Shown here: positions 40,946-47,881 of the stretch, in pieces
Numbering within the stretch: the first letter of the stretch is position 1
How the letters are laid out: every line of letters starts with the position of its first letter
NCBI RefSeq assembly: GCF_002216065.1
Contig: NZ_CP022282.1
Coordinates: 3,782,001 to 3,846,000 of the forward strand
Direction: 5' to 3'
From: Chryseobacterium sp. T16E-39
GTDB taxonomy: Bacteria > Bacteroidota > Bacteroidia > Flavobacteriales > Weeksellaceae
DNA: 64,000 nt
Made by a program: the position numbers and the translations under genes
The notes under the pieces: model-generated
Databases searched by the model: none
The model's input: the letters and a program-made list of their open reading frames with translations, nothing else
Told to the model about the DNA's origin: nothing

Positions 40946-41953
40946 TTATAAAACTCTTAAACCTGCTCTTGGACCAGATGAGGTGACAACAGCCTGCATT
41001 CTTGTTCTTTGTCCGGCTGAAAACATGAACATGGCAGCATCGTCTACATAATCCATATAGTTCATAAACATAATTGATCTAGATACACCACTGCATGTAT
41101 TGTACTTAGGGTAGGTTGGTTTGCCACTGCTGGCTGTAGTCTGTGTAGGGGTATCAGCTACAAGGTCATTTCCGCAATTAGCATCTCCCCAGATGTGTCT
41201 TAGATTTAAATAATGTCCCACTTCGTGAGTTGCTGTTCTTCCAAGGTTGAAGGGAGAGGAAGCGCCTGTCTTTCCAAAAAATGGAGCAGCAATAACAACG
41301 CCGTCATTCCATAACCCTGCAGATTCCGGGAAAGTAGCATATCCAAGAATTTGTCCCTGGCTGCTTGGCATACTGCCTACCACCCAGATATTTAAATAGT
41401 TGGTAGGGTTGGTTGCATTGATACCTCCTGTAGACGTTTTTTTCATCGCGTCATTAGCACTCCAGCTTGTCTTCGTTGTGGATTTTCTAACTGTATTTGA
41501 TAATTTAAATCTTACTTTTACATCACCGGATTTTACGGATTGAAACTCTGTAGGTATTTTTGTAATATCACTGTTTGAGCCTCCATAGTCAGCGTTAAGG
41601 ACTGCAATCTGTTCTGCGATTCTGGCATCAGAAACATTTTGAGCTGCAGTGTTGTATAGTACATTCACTACCACAGGTATTTCAACTGTTCCGTCCGCAA
41701 GAACTTTTCCAAGTTTAATGTCATTGGCTAATTTTTCTGTATTCGCCTCAATAGTTGCATACTTTTGTCTGAGCTCAGGGTTGCTTTGAAGCGCTTGTTT
41801 TCTGATTTCTTCTGAAGGACAGAATCTTTTGCCATTTAAATCTGAAGAAGTGGCTGATTTGTTTGCTGCATCTTCACTCTGATTGGAAACATTGTCGCTG
41901 TTACAAGCTGACATAAACCCTAGTGCAAGGATTCCGAATGCTAGTTTTTTCAT
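40946..41953 (-). CDS. M43-type zinc metalloprotease lipoprotein (copy 1)
   Basis: From ATG 41951-41953 the product is 335 residues with a lipoprotein signal (MKKLAFGILALGFMSAC). The metalloprotease core has THEVGHYLNLRHIWGD, an HExxHxxxxxH zinc site, and the Met-turn FMNYMDYVDD. Cysteines near the active site (DANCGNDLVADTPTQ, YNTCSGVSRS) fit the pappalysin/cytophagalysin (M43) family. A 60-residue N-terminal segment may be a propeptide. The enzyme probably digests external proteins while tethered to the cell. The frame can begin at TTG 41962, but ATG keeps the promoter and signal peptide better placed. It is a tandem paralogue of the next gene. Confidence 0.9.
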   Translation of the reverse strand: MKKLAFGILALGFMSACNSDNVSNQSEDAANKSATSSDLNGKRFCPSEEIRKQALQSNPELRQKYATIEANTEKLANDIKLGKVLADGTVEIPVVVNVLYNTAAQNVSDARIAEQIAVLNADYGGSNSDITKIPTEFQSVKSGDVKVRFKLSNTVRKSTTKTSWSANDAMKKTSTGGINATNPTNYLNIWVVGSMPSSQGQILGYATFPESAGLWNDGVVIAAPFFGKTGASSPFNLGRTATHEVGHYLNLRHIWGDANCGNDLVADTPTQTTASSGKPTYPKYNTCSGVSRSIMFMNYMDYVDDAAMFMFSAGQRTRMQAVVTSSGPRAGLRVL

Positions 41954-41985
41954 AGATTTCAATATTTATATAGTTTGTGGAAAAA

Positions 41986-42363: not shown

Positions 42364-43371
42364 CTAGTAAAGTCTCAGTCCTGATCTAGGTCCAGAGGCT
42401 GATACTACAGCTTGCATTCTTGTTTTTTGATTAGCTGTAAACATAAACATTGCTGCGTCATCAACGTAATCCATGTAGTTCATGAAAATTTGAGAACGGC
42501 TTACACCACCGCATACTCTGTTAAGTGGATAAGAAGGTGTCCCGAAGTTTGGACCAGGTGAAGCTGGAGTGTCGTTTGAATAATCTGTCTGACAGCCAGC
42601 ATCGGAAGAGCCCCAAAGATGCGGCAGATTAAGATAGTGACCAACTTCGTGAGTTGCAGTTCTTCCTTGATTAAATGGTGCCGAAGTTCCGGCTCCAGTT
42701 CCTATAAAAGGAGCACCTATTACAACTCCATCTAATGAAGAAGAGATTGTTCCTGGATAATACGCATAGCCCAATGTATCATCTGTCATTTTGTTCACGA
42801 TCCATATATTTAAATAGTTGTCAGGTGAAGTGGCTGCAATACCTGTGCTTGCAGATTTCATTTTATTTTCATCAGGATTCCATACGCTTGTATTGCTTTG
42901 TTTTCTAACGATTTTCTCTAATCTGAATCGTATTTTAGTGTCTCCTGCTTTTACTGGGACGAATTCTGAAGGAGTGTTGTTGACGTCCGAATTGGTTGCT
43001 CCATAATCTTTATTCAGGACATTGATCTGCGCCTGTAGTCTTGCGTCAGATACATTGTCGGCGCTGGTTTTATAAACAACATTGAATACAACAGGAATTT
43101 CTACTGTACCATCAGCAAGTACTTTGCCTACTTTGATGTCGTTGATGTGCTTTGAAGTGTATTCTTCAATCGCAGTTACCCTTGCTCTTGCTTCAGGATC
43201 TGTGCTCAGTATTTTATCCCTCATTTTGTCTGATGGGCAAACTCTCTTGCCAGTTAGATTTGATGAAGACTCGGGATTGTTTAGTTGGCCTTCATTTTGG
43301 CTGGATAGATTGTCGCTATTACAAGCGGATAGGAATCCTAAGGTAAGGACTCCAAATAGTAGTTTTTTCAT
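42364..43371 (-). CDS. M43-type zinc metalloprotease lipoprotein (copy 2)
   Basis: A 335-residue tandem paralogue of the gene at 40946, identical in length. The lipoprotein signal is MKKLLFGVLTLGFLSAC, the zinc site THEVGHYLNLPHLWGS and the Met-turn FMNYMDYVDDAAMFMF. Long blocks are identical (KVLADGTVEIPVV, GRTATHEVGHYLNL). Copy 2 has a slightly different cysteine-containing loop (DAGCQTDYSNDTPAS). Differences at the substrate-binding loops suggest altered cleavage preference. TTG 43380 is a possible but less likely start. Confidence 0.9.
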   Translation of the reverse strand: MKKLLFGVLTLGFLSACNSDNLSSQNEGQLNNPESSSNLTGKRVCPSDKMRDKILSTDPEARARVTAIEEYTSKHINDIKVGKVLADGTVEIPVVFNVVYKTSADNVSDARLQAQINVLNKDYGATNSDVNNTPSEFVPVKAGDTKIRFRLEKIVRKQSNTSVWNPDENKMKSASTGIAATSPDNYLNIWIVNKMTDDTLGYAYYPGTISSSLDGVVIGAPFIGTGAGTSAPFNQGRTATHEVGHYLNLPHLWGSSDAGCQTDYSNDTPASPGPNFGTPSYPLNRVCGGVSRSQIFMNYMDYVDDAAMFMFTANQKTRMQAVVSASGPRSGLRLY

Positions 43372-43403
43372 AAATTTCAATATTTATATATTTTGTGGAA
43401 AAA

Positions 43404-43916: not shown

Positions 43917-44555
43917 TTAATCGAATCCATTTTTCATTGCGAAAACGGCCAGGCCTACCCGGGTTTTTAGATCTAACTTTTCACAAAGCTGATCCCTGTA
44001 ACTTTCCACTGTTCTTGGGCTGCAGCACATCTTGTCTGCAATCTCTTTATAACTGAGTTCAGTTACAGTATATTTTAAAAACTCCTTTTCACGGTCAGAA
44101 ATCCTGACACTGTCCTTGGCTTCTTTTTCGCTATTTAAGTTAGAAAATATAATGCGGGATGCCCATTCAGGATAAAAGAAACCTTCCGTATTTAACTTTA
44201 CAAGGGCTGTTTCAAGATCTTTTGGATGCGTGTTTTTTAAAAGATAGCCTTTTGCTCCGTTTTTGATCATTTTAATTACACTTTTATCATCTCCCTGCAT
44301 GCTCAAAGCCATCACCTTAATATCAGGATGGTTTTCCTTAAGCCAAAGAACAGTTTCGAAACCATCCATAATAGGCATACTAATGTCCAATAATATAATA
44401 TCAGGAATTTTACTGTTATTTTCGAATTTCTGGATCATATCCTTTCCATTTTCACAGACGTAAATTACTTCAAAATCTTTAAAATTATCTATGATGCCCT
44501 CCAGCGCTTTTGCGATTAGGACGTGGTCGTCTACGATAACAATTGTCTTTTTCAT
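43917..44555 (-). CDS. NarL/LuxR-type response regulator
   Basis: A 212-residue regulator. The receiver domain has VDDHVLIAKALEGI, the phosphorylation Asp in PDIILLDISMPIMDG and Lys in GYLLKNTHP. The LuxR-type helix-turn-helix reads VTELSYKEIADKMCCSPRTV with ESYRDQLCEKLDLKTRVG. The start overlaps the kinase stop by 4 bp (ATGA). It is the last gene of a probable four-gene operon with the kinase, a membrane protein and the NHGNLIPPD protein. A candidate operator at 46631-46646 lies in the divergent promoter region. Confidence 0.93.
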   Translation of the reverse strand: MKKTIVIVDDHVLIAKALEGIIDNFKDFEVIYVCENGKDMIQKFENNSKIPDIILLDISMPIMDGFETVLWLKENHPDIKVMALSMQGDDKSVIKMIKNGAKGYLLKNTHPKDLETALVKLNTEGFFYPEWASRIIFSNLNSEKEAKDSVRISDREKEFLKYTVTELSYKEIADKMCCSPRTVESYRDQLCEKLDLKTRVGLAVFAMKNGFD

Positions 44556-45337
44556 GGCTGTTTTTTTAAAGTGATATTAACGGTAGTCCCTTTGTTTTTT
44601 AAACTTTCCAGGGTGAAATCTGCTCCAATGATTTCGGCTCTGTTTTTCATATTTGTTAATCCTATTCCATTCGATCTTATATTGGACCTGTCAAATCCAA
44701 TACCGTCATCTTTAATATTTAGCTCCCAAAGAACTTCATCAGATGTGTTTAGGTTGATCAGAATATTCTTGCACTTAGCATGCTTGATGCTGTTTTGAAT
44801 AAATTCCTGGGTAATCCGCAGGAGTACATTTTTATGGACAAACCCTAAATCAAGTTGATTGAAATTATAAGTGAAGCTTACATTGCATCTTTTGAAAGCA
44901 TTGGTATTGTCTACTTCTTCCTGGATTAAAGTTACAATTTCCTTTTGGTTGATATTGTCATCAGTCAGTGTTTTCGAAAGACTCCTTAAATCCTGTAAAG
45001 ACTGGTTGATAATCTGTGAAACTTGTTCTATTCGCTCGTTTACTTCAGAAACCTTATTTTCGTAAAGAAGTTGTTGAGTATAGAGACTTACCAATGTTAA
45101 TTTTTGTCCGATATTATCATGGAGCTCACGTCCAATCTGCTGCATGGTTGCCTGCTGAATTTCCAATTGTGTAGCCAGAAGTTCTTTTTGATGAATTTCA
45201 TTTTTTATTTCAATTTCAATCAAATACTCTTTTTTTCGTTGTTTATATTTTCTGATGTAAACCATTACGGCTGCTACAAACAGTACAAAGAATATATTGA
45301 ATAAAATAATGGTTATTAAGAGCTCTGTTTTCCCCAT
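44552..45337 (-). CDS. Sensor histidine kinase, HisKA_3 type
   Basis: A 261-residue kinase with one N-terminal membrane helix (LLITIILFNIFFVLFVAAVMVY) and almost no extracellular part, then a coiled coil. The HisKA_3 H-box is MQQIGRELHDNIGQKLT, followed by LRITQEFIQNSIKHAKCKNI (N-box) and IKDDGIGFDRSNIRSNGIGL. With so little sensor domain of its own, it may receive its signal from the membrane protein encoded just upstream, whose gene overlaps it by 22 bp. That dependence is inference. Confidence 0.92.
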   Translation of the reverse strand: MGKTELLITIILFNIFFVLFVAAVMVYIRKYKQRKKEYLIEIEIKNEIHQKELLATQLEIQQATMQQIGRELHDNIGQKLTLVSLYTQQLLYENKVSEVNERIEQVSQIINQSLQDLRSLSKTLTDDNINQKEIVTLIQEEVDNTNAFKRCNVSFTYNFNQLDLGFVHKNVLLRITQEFIQNSIKHAKCKNILINLNTSDEVLWELNIKDDGIGFDRSNIRSNGIGLTNMKNRAEIIGADFTLESLKNKGTTVNITLKKQP

Positions 45338-45963
45338 ATAAATGAAATTGAGAATAATAAGTACATGATAATCCCTGATATCAGGAAATAGTCAAAATAA
45401 ATATTGAAGATTCCCCGGTACTCCCTGATTAAGGTCAAAAATGTCCAAAATGGCAAAGTTCCAATATAAAATAAAGTGACACCAAGATTAATATAAAACA
45501 TCCTGTTTTTGCCAAAATCAAGAATGCTCGAAGAGTTGATCTGCTTATAATATTCCATTACCACGAGAATCATGAGTATAAGACAGCCCAGGGTATAATT
45601 TACTGAGAACATGATCTTATTGGTGGAAAAAAGAATTTCGCTTGGGATGAATGAAAGCAGATAGACTAATGATAAAACAGTGAATAGCTTCTTGTTTTCA
45701 AAAGACTTCGCTGCATACAGCCAGTAAAAGAATATAAACTGAACAGGGATGACAAAATAATTGTAAAAAGCAGCTTTATTGTATTGCATGATTTGATCAC
45801 CCCATTTTCCTATGGCTTCACAAAGAAAAATAAAGATTAAAAAATACATGAAATATTTCCAATATTGATTTTTAATTTGCTTATATGATAAAATAGATAT
45901 AAGTGCTGCAAGCCCCTCTATCCAGAACATAGATTCTTGTATCACTTTTTGGAAATCAGTCAT
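45316..45963 (-). CDS. Multi-pass membrane protein linked to the NarL-type kinase
   Basis: A 215-residue protein with about six or seven hydrophobic segments, for example YFMYFLIFIFLCEAIG, YNYFVIPVQFIFFYWLY, YTLGCLILMILVVMEY and YFLISGIIMYLLFSISFIWG. There is no recognised family domain. It overlaps the kinase gene by 22 bp and follows the NHGNLIPPD gene by 39 bp. It may be a sensor subunit for the kinase. This role is proposed only from gene order. Confidence 0.75.
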   Translation of the reverse strand: MTDFQKVIQESMFWIEGLAALISILSYKQIKNQYWKYFMYFLIFIFLCEAIGKWGDQIMQYNKAAFYNYFVIPVQFIFFYWLYAAKSFENKKLFTVLSLVYLLSFIPSEILFSTNKIMFSVNYTLGCLILMILVVMEYYKQINSSSILDFGKNRMFYINLGVTLFYIGTLPFWTFLTLIREYRGIFNIYFDYFLISGIIMYLLFSISFIWGKQSS

Positions 45964-46002
45964 CGTGCTTAGTGTTATTTAAATAAATTGTAAGAGGAAT
46001 TT

Positions 46003-46542
46003 CTAGTATGATTCTATTTTAACGCCATCCGGTGGAATTAGATTTCCGTGATTTTGAGCTAGTCCTTCTTCTTCAGTAGGTTCTGCACTACGTGATTTTA
46101 AGGCCATTGCAATAGCTTGTCCATTAGAATTCGGATTAAAATCATAGTCTAAAAAGTGGCCCTTTTCATCCTGCTTTTTCATTGTAGGAACCATTACCAG
46201 TGTATGTCTTTCTGCATATTCTTTTGGTACGGTATGGTTTTCCATGATTTCCCAGTTTTCAGCTTTTGGATAAGCTGCATAGTAGAATCTGATGCCCAGA
46301 TCATTTTCAGTTGTGGTAGGATTTACTTTTTTAGCTTCTTCTTCAAGGGTTGAAATAAACTTTTTCAATTTAGGTAGGTCAAACCAGATAGAGTGTGCAT
46401 CACTCATTTCAAGATTTGAATTAATAGCTTCTAATTGATTATTACGGTAGTTGTTAATCAGTTCCTGAATAAATGCAGTTGTCATGGTGTTTGGACTGCT
46501 TAATGTGGCAGTGTCACCTTCAAGGGTAGGTTTTGTTTCCAT
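46003..46542 (-). CDS. Unrecognised cytosolic protein with terminal NHGNLIPPD motif
   Basis: A 179-residue protein from ATG 46540-46542 (an ATG seven codons upstream is also possible). It has no signal peptide. The central part (HSIWFDLPKLKKFISTLEE, then LGIRFYYAAYPK and HTLVMVPTMKK) aligns by eye with each of two repeats in the divergent lipoprotein at 46797. The C-terminus is NHGNLIPPDGVKIESY; the nine-residue core recurs exactly in the lipoprotein. No known family is recognised. It heads the membrane protein-kinase-regulator operon, so it is probably regulated with, or connected to, that system. Confidence 0.75.
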   Translation of the reverse strand: METKPTLEGDTATLSSPNTMTTAFIQELINNYRNNQLEAINSNLEMSDAHSIWFDLPKLKKFISTLEEEAKKVNPTTTENDLGIRFYYAAYPKAENWEIMENHTVPKEYAERHTLVMVPTMKKQDEKGHFLDYDFNPNSNGQAIAMALKSRSAEPTEEEGLAQNHGNLIPPDGVKIESY

Positions 46543-46630
46543 AATGTTAGTTTTTAAACACATTGTTAGTTAGTAATGCAAATCTCGGAAAAATTTTAAT
46601 TTAATTAACAGGTGTTTTTCCTATATGTTC

Positions 46631-46646
46631 TCCGTGATTTTACGGA
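46631..46646. promoter_or_regulatory. Candidate NarL-type operator in the divergent promoter region
   Basis: TCCGT and ACGGA form an inverted repeat with a 6-bp centre. It lies between the divergent NHGNLIPPD genes, upstream of the operon that encodes a NarL-type regulator. Support is limited to symmetry and position. Confidence 0.35.
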
Positions 46647-46796
46647 TTGTATTCTTTCGATGTATAAAATGGTATTTTTACTGAAAATGTGATATTTAAA
46701 CTTTATGTTAATTATATTATTTTTTTTGTTAAAATAATGAATTATTACATTTAATTCTACAGAATTGGATATATTTACTATTCTAAAAAAATAATT

Positions 46797-47678
46797 TTGA
46801 AAACAAAAATTTTTAGCGTAGCCTTTTTAGGCCTTTTGTCGGTTTGGGTGTTATTTCAGTCATGTAATGGTGATAGTGAAAATGATTTGTCTAAAAATAA
46901 AATGATTTCTCAAAATTACAAAGATCAATTGATCAATAGTAAAACTGCGCAATCACTTGGAGACATTTATATGGCTAACAACTATCATTTATTGTCTGGC
47001 GGTAGAACAGCTAGGGGATTATCCGGAGAAGATGCAAAACAAGTAATCTATCCAATAGAAGTGTTGAGTTCCTATGTAGATTATGTGATCGGAAAAGTAG
47101 GTGAAGATGCATTAATTGGTGTCAATGTAGGACAGTATCCTCTTGATCAATTAATAGATAGTCGCCAGAGACAAGATTATGAAGGATATCAAACCATGTT
47201 CTTAATGGCATATAAAAATACAAGCGATACTATTTCAGTAAATAACGCAGTAGAAGCTCTGAATCATGGAAATCTTATTCCACCAGATGCAACATCCTAT
47301 GATAAAGAGCTGTTGGATAAGAATTTTGAAAATTATGTAATTACAGATGAGGCCGCAATGCTTTTGTATAATACCTATACTTTTAATAATGAAAAGACAT
47401 TGAATGCAGAAGGGGTTGAAGTACAACGACAATACTTTTACAGTGTCAACGTATTAAGAGATTATCTTCAGTATGTAAAAGAGCAGGCTAATTTGAAAGG
47501 AATTACCGATATAAATATTTCAATCAATATAGGACAGAACAGCTTCGGTTCAGATGTGTCGGCTAAAGGAAAGCAAAAGGCAGGAGATCAGTGTATTTAT
47601 TTCACGGCATTTCCTAGAGGGAATAATATGAAAGATATGGCAGGGAATCCTCTTAATACCCTTTCTGCACTTAAATAA
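46797..47678 (+). CDS. Unrecognised lipoprotein with two repeats and NHGNLIPPD motif
   Basis: A 293-residue lipoprotein starting at TTG (no in-frame ATG precedes the signal KTKIFSVAFLGLLSVWVLFQSC). The residues after Cys are acidic (NGDSEND), as in surface-export signals. Two internal repeats are visible, about residues 50-164 and 183-293. Each has a helix, then IYPIEVLSSYVDYV or YSVNVLRDYLQYV, then ALIGVNVGQYP or DINISINIGQNSF, then TMFLMAYKN or IYFTAFPRG. Repeat one ends with NHGNLIPPD at 156-164. It is divergent from the small paralogue and followed by a bidirectional terminator. Function unknown. Confidence 0.75.
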   Translation: MKTKIFSVAFLGLLSVWVLFQSCNGDSENDLSKNKMISQNYKDQLINSKTAQSLGDIYMANNYHLLSGGRTARGLSGEDAKQVIYPIEVLSSYVDYVIGKVGEDALIGVNVGQYPLDQLIDSRQRQDYEGYQTMFLMAYKNTSDTISVNNAVEALNHGNLIPPDATSYDKELLDKNFENYVITDEAAMLLYNTYTFNNEKTLNAEGVEVQRQYFYSVNVLRDYLQYVKEQANLKGITDINISINIGQNSFGSDVSAKGKQKAGDQCIYFTAFPRGNNMKDMAGNPLNTLSALK

Positions 47679-47731: not shown

Positions 47732-47881
47732 TTAGACACATGGGTATCTCCTGATGTCTTTACATGTATTGTCTGCGGTACAGCATAATCCTGGTGGGCA
47801 TCCGCCTCCGAGATCACAATAAATTGGTGCAGGGCCCGCTCCCACAATTTTCTTTAAATCATTTCTTTTTAACTTTTTCAT
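47732..47881 (-). CDS. Bacteriocin-like leader peptide with six-cysteine knot-like core
   Basis: A 49-residue peptide from ATG 47879-47881. Residues 1-16 (MKKLKRNDLKKIVGAG) resemble the double-glycine-type leader of Chryseobacterium bacteriocin-like proteins. The 33-residue core has six cysteines at 22, 28, 33, 34, 40 and 48, spaced C-x5-C-x4-CC-x5-C-x7-C. This is the framework of inhibitor-cystine-knot miniproteins, with a CPPGLCC segment. It lies downstream of clpB but has a clpB terminator in between, so it likely has its own promoter. TACATTTA on the minus strand at 47921-47928 is a possible -7 element. No transporter or maturation gene is adjacent. Confidence 0.7.
   Translation of the reverse strand: MKKLKRNDLKKIVGAGPAPIYCDLGGGCPPGLCCTADNTCKDIRRYPCV

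Follow-up and report, generated by a model that had tools for sequence, protein, structure and literature searches.

The genome of Chryseobacterium sp. T16E-39 (4.87 Mb in a single contig) contains four consecutive genes that encode a small protein (SP), a predicted seven-helix (7TM) membrane protein (MP), a histidine kinase and a response regulator. They are located in a window of 64 kb (positions 3,782,001 to 3,846,000 of contig NZ_CP022282.1), which is the whole stretch of DNA that was analysed. The same gene order recurs in other genomes, and SP and its relatives, here called partner proteins, have a short conserved motif in the C-terminal tail. We propose, with a probability of about 0.5, that the genes form an undescribed signalling cassette (partner, 7TM protein, kinase, regulator) that is widespread in Bacteroidota and in which the tail of the partner docks on the 7TM protein.

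SP (46003..46542, minus strand) has 179 amino acids with an alpha/beta core, a disordered tail and no signal peptide; an alternative upstream ATG would extend it to 186 amino acids. After a gap of 39 bp follows MP (45316..45963, minus strand), a separate open reading frame (ORF) of 215 amino acids with a predicted N-out/C-in topology. The MP gene overlaps the kinase gene (44552..45337, minus strand) by 22 bp, and the kinase gene overlaps the regulator gene (43917..44555, minus strand) by 4 bp. This spacing agrees with the original prediction, which was made from the sequence of the window and described a sensor-poor kinase and a NarL-type regulator. Both descriptions hold. The regulator is of the NarL/FixJ type with a receiver and a LuxR-type helix-turn-helix (Pfam Response_reg, 3e-24; GerE, 9.2e-13), and the kinase has the Pfam domains HisKA_3 and HATPase_c. 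No sensor domain was found in the kinase, and its sequence shows a single hydrophobic stretch at the N-terminus.

A putative lipoprotein (LP; 46797..47678, plus strand; 293 amino acids, TTG start) is encoded divergently from SP, and the intergenic region is common to both genes. The SP and LP genes had been described as belonging to no family and as encoding the exact nonapeptide NHGNLIPPD in both products. The two ORFs are present, and neither Pfam nor NCBIfam gives anything above the cut-off for SP, LP or MP. No solved structure was matched by the sequences of these three proteins, and the PADLOC anti-phage models gave no row at E <= 0.1 for them and two relatives. Searched as a degenerate back-translated DNA pattern, NHGNLIPPD has two exact matches in the 64 kb, one in each gene (46027-46053, minus strand; 47262-47288, plus strand), with 0 expected over 100 shuffles. 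In SP the nonapeptide and seven further residues, the last of which is Y, make up the tail directly before the stop codon (46003..46053, minus strand).

Recurrence of the gene order

Of 173 genomes of the genus, 162 have both SP and MP and the other 11 have neither. Named relatives of both proteins are mostly from Chryseobacterium. An MP alignment search of named genomes gave 146 candidate loci, and in the best 80 of these, which were kept, the order SP-MP-kinase-regulator was found in every case (66 in Chryseobacterium and 14 in Pedobacter). A second set of loci was collected by domain matches and comprises L074-L110 (37 loci, 36 from the genus and L107 from another genus of the same family) together with L141-L174 and L285-L292, which are all the listed domain matches outside the genus. 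It contains 84 domain ORFs shorter than 265 amino acids, leaves out chains of at least 265 amino acids (two-unit LPs) and partly overlaps the 80-locus set in genomes (e.g. L141 and L235). MP is encoded downstream of 81 of these ORFs by rule, in five cases past a second domain gene, and at L085 and L091 it was found by BLAST; a kinase gene is located downstream of 78 and a regulator gene downstream of 72. The original prediction tied an undescribed family to an operon for a membrane protein, a kinase and a regulator, and would have been refuted if homologues were almost never found beside such an operon. The opposite is the case, with the complete order at 80/80 loci, MP beside 83/84 domain ORFs and a downstream kinase gene for 78/84.

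The link between partner and MP appears to be the tightest one because the pair also occurs without a recognised kinase or regulator (L155, L157, L167, L307 and L322), while no locus with the domain and a kinase but without MP was found in the regions examined.

The distribution in the phylum was studied with sequence profiles. Profile A8 was built from 34 diverse members, including SP and leaving out LP. Among 395 genomes across the phylum, profile A3 matched 37, A8 matched 43 and the MP profile matched 64, with up to five matches per genome. The domain matches fall in the family of the window's own genome, in a second family of the same order, perhaps Flavobacteriaceae, and in three more families of the same class, one of them perhaps Chitinophagaceae. 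In a family-wide draw of 120 genomes the SP profile A1 matched 13, of which 12 belong to the genus and one, a weak match, to another genus.

A motif in the partners of more distant MPs was noticed post hoc in a discovery set of 40 regions (L293-L332) that have an MP match and no listed domain match and that are a part of all such matches. Many of the ORFs directly upstream of MP in these regions end with NHGQIYP, YYDMGSLYP, CPPICSS..., IYDFSQPCPPQ or similar. A regular expression and a rule were then fixed before a test on held-out regions. These came from 169 genomes around another centre, of which 45 matched, including some genomes from the earlier sets; 40 regions were taken from new genomes and represent the best 41 of 56 MP matches in those genomes, as one region has a tandem pair. 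One tandem copy and the MP ORFs of L335, L336, L341 and L345 (overlap rule) were left out, giving 36 counted MPs. For 28/36 MPs the ORF upstream had the motif among its 40 C-terminal residues, compared with 6/140 control ORFs from the same regions (Fisher p 1.2e-19), and a kinase is encoded near 34 and a regulator near 31 of the 36. Under the same fixed rule the discovery set has the motif for 28/40 MPs compared with 5/172 controls.

The partner domain and its tail

A total of 354 SP homologues were found at E <= 1e-3, and every named organism among the 120 listed is a Chryseobacterium. The motif N-x-G-x-L-x-P-P is present in all 120 listed homologues that were compared, with N, G, L, P and P invariant, and 119 of them have F or Y within the last three residues. 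Residues 151-160 of SP, just ahead of the motif, form the most variable ten-residue block of the protein (entropy 2.76 bits). The regular expression finds the tail motif in 85/86 SP loci of the genus, and exceptions are known from other SP loci: L083 (HP), L078 (I for L) and L141 (T for L). In far relatives the tail takes the forms CPPxC or YP. Eleven far relatives were chosen by eye among the proteins of the discovery set, and their profile aligns with the SP domain profile with the tail included (hhalign probability 96.1, E 2.9e-9). The held-out test and this alignment indicate that NHGNLIPPD is the form that the genus has of a C-terminal hallmark common to the whole superfamily. The exact nonapeptide is consequently not the defining unit but one form of a family-wide motif.

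The structure of SP was modelled with AlphaFold2 from 67 sequences (mean pLDDT 64.6, pTM 0.53). The model has two long helices and three strands, with block means mostly between 71 and 87, and pLDDT below 50 for residues 1-16 and 138-179. No known fold was found for it.

LP was claimed to contain two internal repeats and SP one matching unit. Profile A8 matches LP twice, at 46809..47300 (plus strand, E 1.8e-14), which ends with NHGNLIPPD, and at 47328..47609 (plus strand, E 6.4e-5), where the nonapeptide is absent; in LP it is found between the units. Since LP had no part in building A8, the two matches show that LP is a two-unit form of the SP domain, as was claimed. The LP family and the A8 domain profile also match each other over unit 1 with a profile-profile probability of 99.0. 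Plain BLASTP of SP against LP gives a significant alignment of just 11 residues around NHGNLIPPD, so profiles are needed to see the wider relation.

Only nine LP homologues were found, LP itself included. The protein starts with a hydrophobic N-terminus followed by FQSC at residues 20-23, a putative lipobox by sequence in which F and Q are not classical residues; S22, C23 and N24 are invariant in 9/9 homologues. The LP profile matches 75 of the 173 genomes of the genus, of which seven have a full-length LP, each time beside SP. In the remaining 68 genomes, and for a second match in G154, the LP-profile match is located elsewhere and not beside SP, in open frames of 182-223 amino acids except for an 86-aa fragment in G238. 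A pair of lipoprotein and cytosolic protein, as in the original prediction, is therefore a minor arrangement and not the core of the system (full-length LP in 7/173 genomes of the genus, SP and MP in 162/173).

At the 15 of these other places that were read (L094-L105 and L108-L110) the match is a single-unit chain (LP1), mostly with a lipoprotein-like start and with its own MP, kinase and regulator. At L094-L103, L105, L108 and L109 the LP1-type cassette is followed by two genes for proteins of about 281-314 and 335 amino acids, grouped by length and order only. Two domain proteins per cassette were observed at L082, L091, L142, L143, L150, L151 and L158. At L142 one of them has a lipobox-like start and the other a membrane helix followed by positive charges, which resembles the pairing of LP and SP.

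The membrane protein and the surroundings of the cassette

Seven long helices are predicted for MP, and the nearest solved folds are those of G protein-coupled receptors (GPCRs) and rhodopsins, a weak similarity at the fold level. No row at E <= 1 was found for the MP of the window in Pfam or NCBIfam, LiaF-type and 7TM models included, and when 20 diverse MPs were compared with Pfam, no family came up at E <= 0.01. Among the listed MP matches the longest open frames have 290 amino acids (395-genome draw) and 301 amino acids (second genome set). In MPs of the Chryseobacterium and LP1 types, conservation is highest in TM5 and TM6 among the helices and in loop 5 among the loops.

Several known kinds of membrane protein were considered and rejected. 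A microbial rhodopsin should have the retinal-binding lysine, and a lysine anywhere in TM7 is present in just 9/35 MPs. A 7TMR-DISM receptor does not fit a protein that has no 7TM Pfam match and is not fused to an output domain. The protein has no major-facilitator Pfam match and seven predicted long helices, which speaks against a UhpC-like transporter sensor, and it matches no LiaF-type model, which speaks against LiaF or VraT.

At least two MP copies lie next to each other or on both sides of SP in one cassette at L092, L093, L300 and L357. In the 14 Pedobacter cassettes (L209, L214, L218, L220-L222, L225, L229, L233-L235, L240, L244 and L246) MP is 61-66% identical to that of the window. 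Many Chryseobacterium MPs have the same level of identity, though Pedobacter belongs to another order, and horizontal transfer of these cassettes is possible judging from the identities.

The localisation of the partners was predicted by a simple sequence rule, and the classed partners are those that match the profile or the motif. An N-terminal membrane signal is missing from 84/86 SPs of the genus, from 24/31 partners in L293-L332 and from 23/32 in L333-L372. A lipoprotein-like start was found in 20/41 partners of the set outside the genus and in 11/17 in L094-L110. In the SPs of Pedobacter positive charges come after a membrane helix, which should place their domain in the cytosol. The partner family seems to be present on both sides of the membrane.

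Between the genes for ClpB and LP there is a gene for a cysteine-rich peptide of 49 amino acids with a double-glycine-type leader (47732-47881, minus strand) and a weak match, under the cut-off, to the NCBIfam model leader_Chryseo. Similar peptides, recognised by pattern, are encoded 178-1459 bp upstream of SP on the same strand at 28/66 Chryseobacterium loci within L175-L254, and they are present at 2/20 loci in L074-L093, at 0/17 in L094-L110 and at 0/14 Pedobacter loci. The sequence CDLGGGCPPGLCC of the cysteine-rich peptide resembles partner tails, and a role of the peptide as a secreted ligand is possible. Two metalloprotease genes with lipoprotein-like starts (40946-41962 and 42364-43380, minus strand) resemble metzin_BF0631 under the cut-off, and relatives of them adjoin the cassette at 56/66 Chryseobacterium and 0/14 Pedobacter loci.

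Proposed signalling and rival explanations

The proposal builds on homology, gene order, the motif, the kinase in which no sensor domain was found and the predicted heptahelical model; the docking, the direction and sign of the control, the signal and the targets we infer. As the kinase lacks a recognised sensor domain, its input would come from the stand-alone 7TM protein, in a manner like that of the UhpC-UhpB-UhpA or LiaF-LiaS-LiaR systems, and probably via the well conserved region of TM5, inner loop and TM6. The conserved tail (N-x-G-x-L-x-P-P, CPPxC or YP) would dock on the 7TM protein from a flexible linker and set its state; docking is proposed because a short tail that stays invariant while its linker varies resembles a docking peptide. 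The alpha/beta core might tune the docking by sensing a cytosolic condition in the signal-less and membrane-anchored forms and an envelope condition in the lipoprotein forms. The kinase would then phosphorylate the regulator and transcription would change.

Several observations weigh against this proposal. The main difficulty, for any single mechanism, is the two-sided localisation, because partners are found in signal-less forms as well as in putative lipoprotein forms, and a single docking site could hardly work on both faces. MPs of the lipoprotein type show no switch of conservation to the outer face (inner 0.72, outer 0.98 bits), and in the Pedobacter set the two halves of MP are about equally conserved (0.68 and 0.63), with a loop other than loop 5 as the best conserved one. 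The motif is internal in LP and not C-terminal, and the monomer model of SP, which is of modest quality, shows a disordered tail. For 8/36 held-out MPs there is no motif-bearing upstream ORF (three have no ORF within the limits and five have one without the motif), and two marginal domain matches come without the cassette, L292 (E 4.8e-4) and L291, which has E 4.8e-5 and gave no domain ORF. Conserved operons can also arise from autoregulation without any contact between the proteins.

This last point leads to a rival explanation in which the partner is the main target of the regulator, an autoregulated output or feedback gene whose product has its role elsewhere, e.g. in the envelope, or in the cytosol as a stress protein. 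Its place as the first gene of the operon and the divergent LP gene with the SP intergenic region in common are in line with this, and the mixed localisation is easily explained when no fixed contact with MP is needed. However, partner-MP pairs without a recognised kinase or regulator (L155, L157 and L167) are not predicted by autoregulation, and the tail, short and invariant behind a variable linker, points to a binding partner, which makes the explanation unlikely. The partner or MP could also be a negative regulator that keeps the kinase off until stress, as LiaF does with LiaS. In the LiaF-LiaS-LiaR and VraT-VraS-VraR systems, too, the gene for a membrane protein accompanies those for a kinase of the HisKA_3 type and a regulator of the NarL type, and the three-gene logic of LiaFSR is the same as here. 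The NCBIfam LiaS model gives a match to the kinase at E 2.5e-21 and 76 bits, far under its cut-off of 450, and a gene for the ClpB disaggregase adjoins the cassette at 66/66 Chryseobacterium loci. There is, however, no ClpB neighbour at the 14 Pedobacter loci, and MP is without any match in Pfam or NCBIfam, so that we consider a negative regulator of this kind very improbable. The cassette also differs from these systems by an additional, conserved partner protein.

ComX is a precursor without signal peptide like most partners, and the kinase and regulator types of comQXPA resemble those of the cassette. These likenesses favour a peptide pheromone, where the tail of the partner is cut off, exported and then sensed by the 7TM protein from the cell exterior, in the way that ComP senses ComX. 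The gene order, with a small-protein gene before those of the sensor kinase and regulator, is also similar to comQXPA as outlined in PMC4008528, and most members have the tail at the C-terminus, in many cases with a cysteine pair (CPPxC). Nevertheless, the motif is conserved (120/120) and not hypervariable, several blocks of the SP core are more conserved than the tail block, and the lipoprotein forms, the membrane-anchored forms and the internal motif of LP are difficult to reconcile with a released peptide. The cassette differs further in that sensor and kinase are separate proteins, the partner consists of a folded domain and a conserved tail, and there is no isoprenyl transferase gene. The four genes themselves encode no exporter or peptidase, flanking ORFs outside the genus not having been identified. 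We consider a pheromone quite unlikely.

Pairs of a HisKA_3 kinase and NarL-type regulator that take their signal from an accessory membrane protein are in themselves of a known kind. UhpC-UhpB-UhpA, which senses sugar phosphates, has a separate multi-pass membrane sensor, a HisKA_3-type kinase and a NarL/FixJ-type regulator as in the cassette, and UhpB is the best NCBIfam row for the kinase (1.6e-25 and 90 bits, where the cut-off is 408). UhpC, however, is homologous to transporters and has 12 TM helices, whereas MP has seven helices and no Pfam match, and the Uhp system is not known to include a tail partner protein. In 7TMR-DISM and LytS-type receptors the receptor and the output are fused in one chain. 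Both kinds are bacterial receptors with seven helices (for LytS-type, BtsS), as described in PMC6107284 and PMC10653868, and seven are also predicted for MP, which stands alone and matches no Pfam model. In the literature searched, mostly open-access and represented by titles and the openings of abstracts, no description of an SP-MP-kinase-regulator cassette was found. Neither the receptor family nor the partner family nor their arrangement in four genes is described in the libraries and literature searched. A more far-reaching idea, which we think improbable, is that the cassette represents a new class of bacterial signalling system in which stand-alone, GPCR-like seven-helix receptors each have their own protein ligand, the tail being the agonist and a sensor-less kinase the output, and with the ligand inside or outside depending on lineage. 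The interpretation in the original prediction is partly supported overall, and its envelope-to-cytosol direction and ligand role are, like the docking, something that we infer; in the SP set of the genus and in both MP-led sets, a recognisable signal peptide is missing from most partners.

Two families that are unnamed in Pfam and NCBIfam, one of them of predicted heptahelical membrane proteins, are thus found together in many Bacteroidota. Should this pairing be functional, it would provide a definable input for the sensor-less kinases of such operons, and the tail motif would be a direct handle on the way in which a kinase is driven by a small partner and a 7TM protein that is separate from it.

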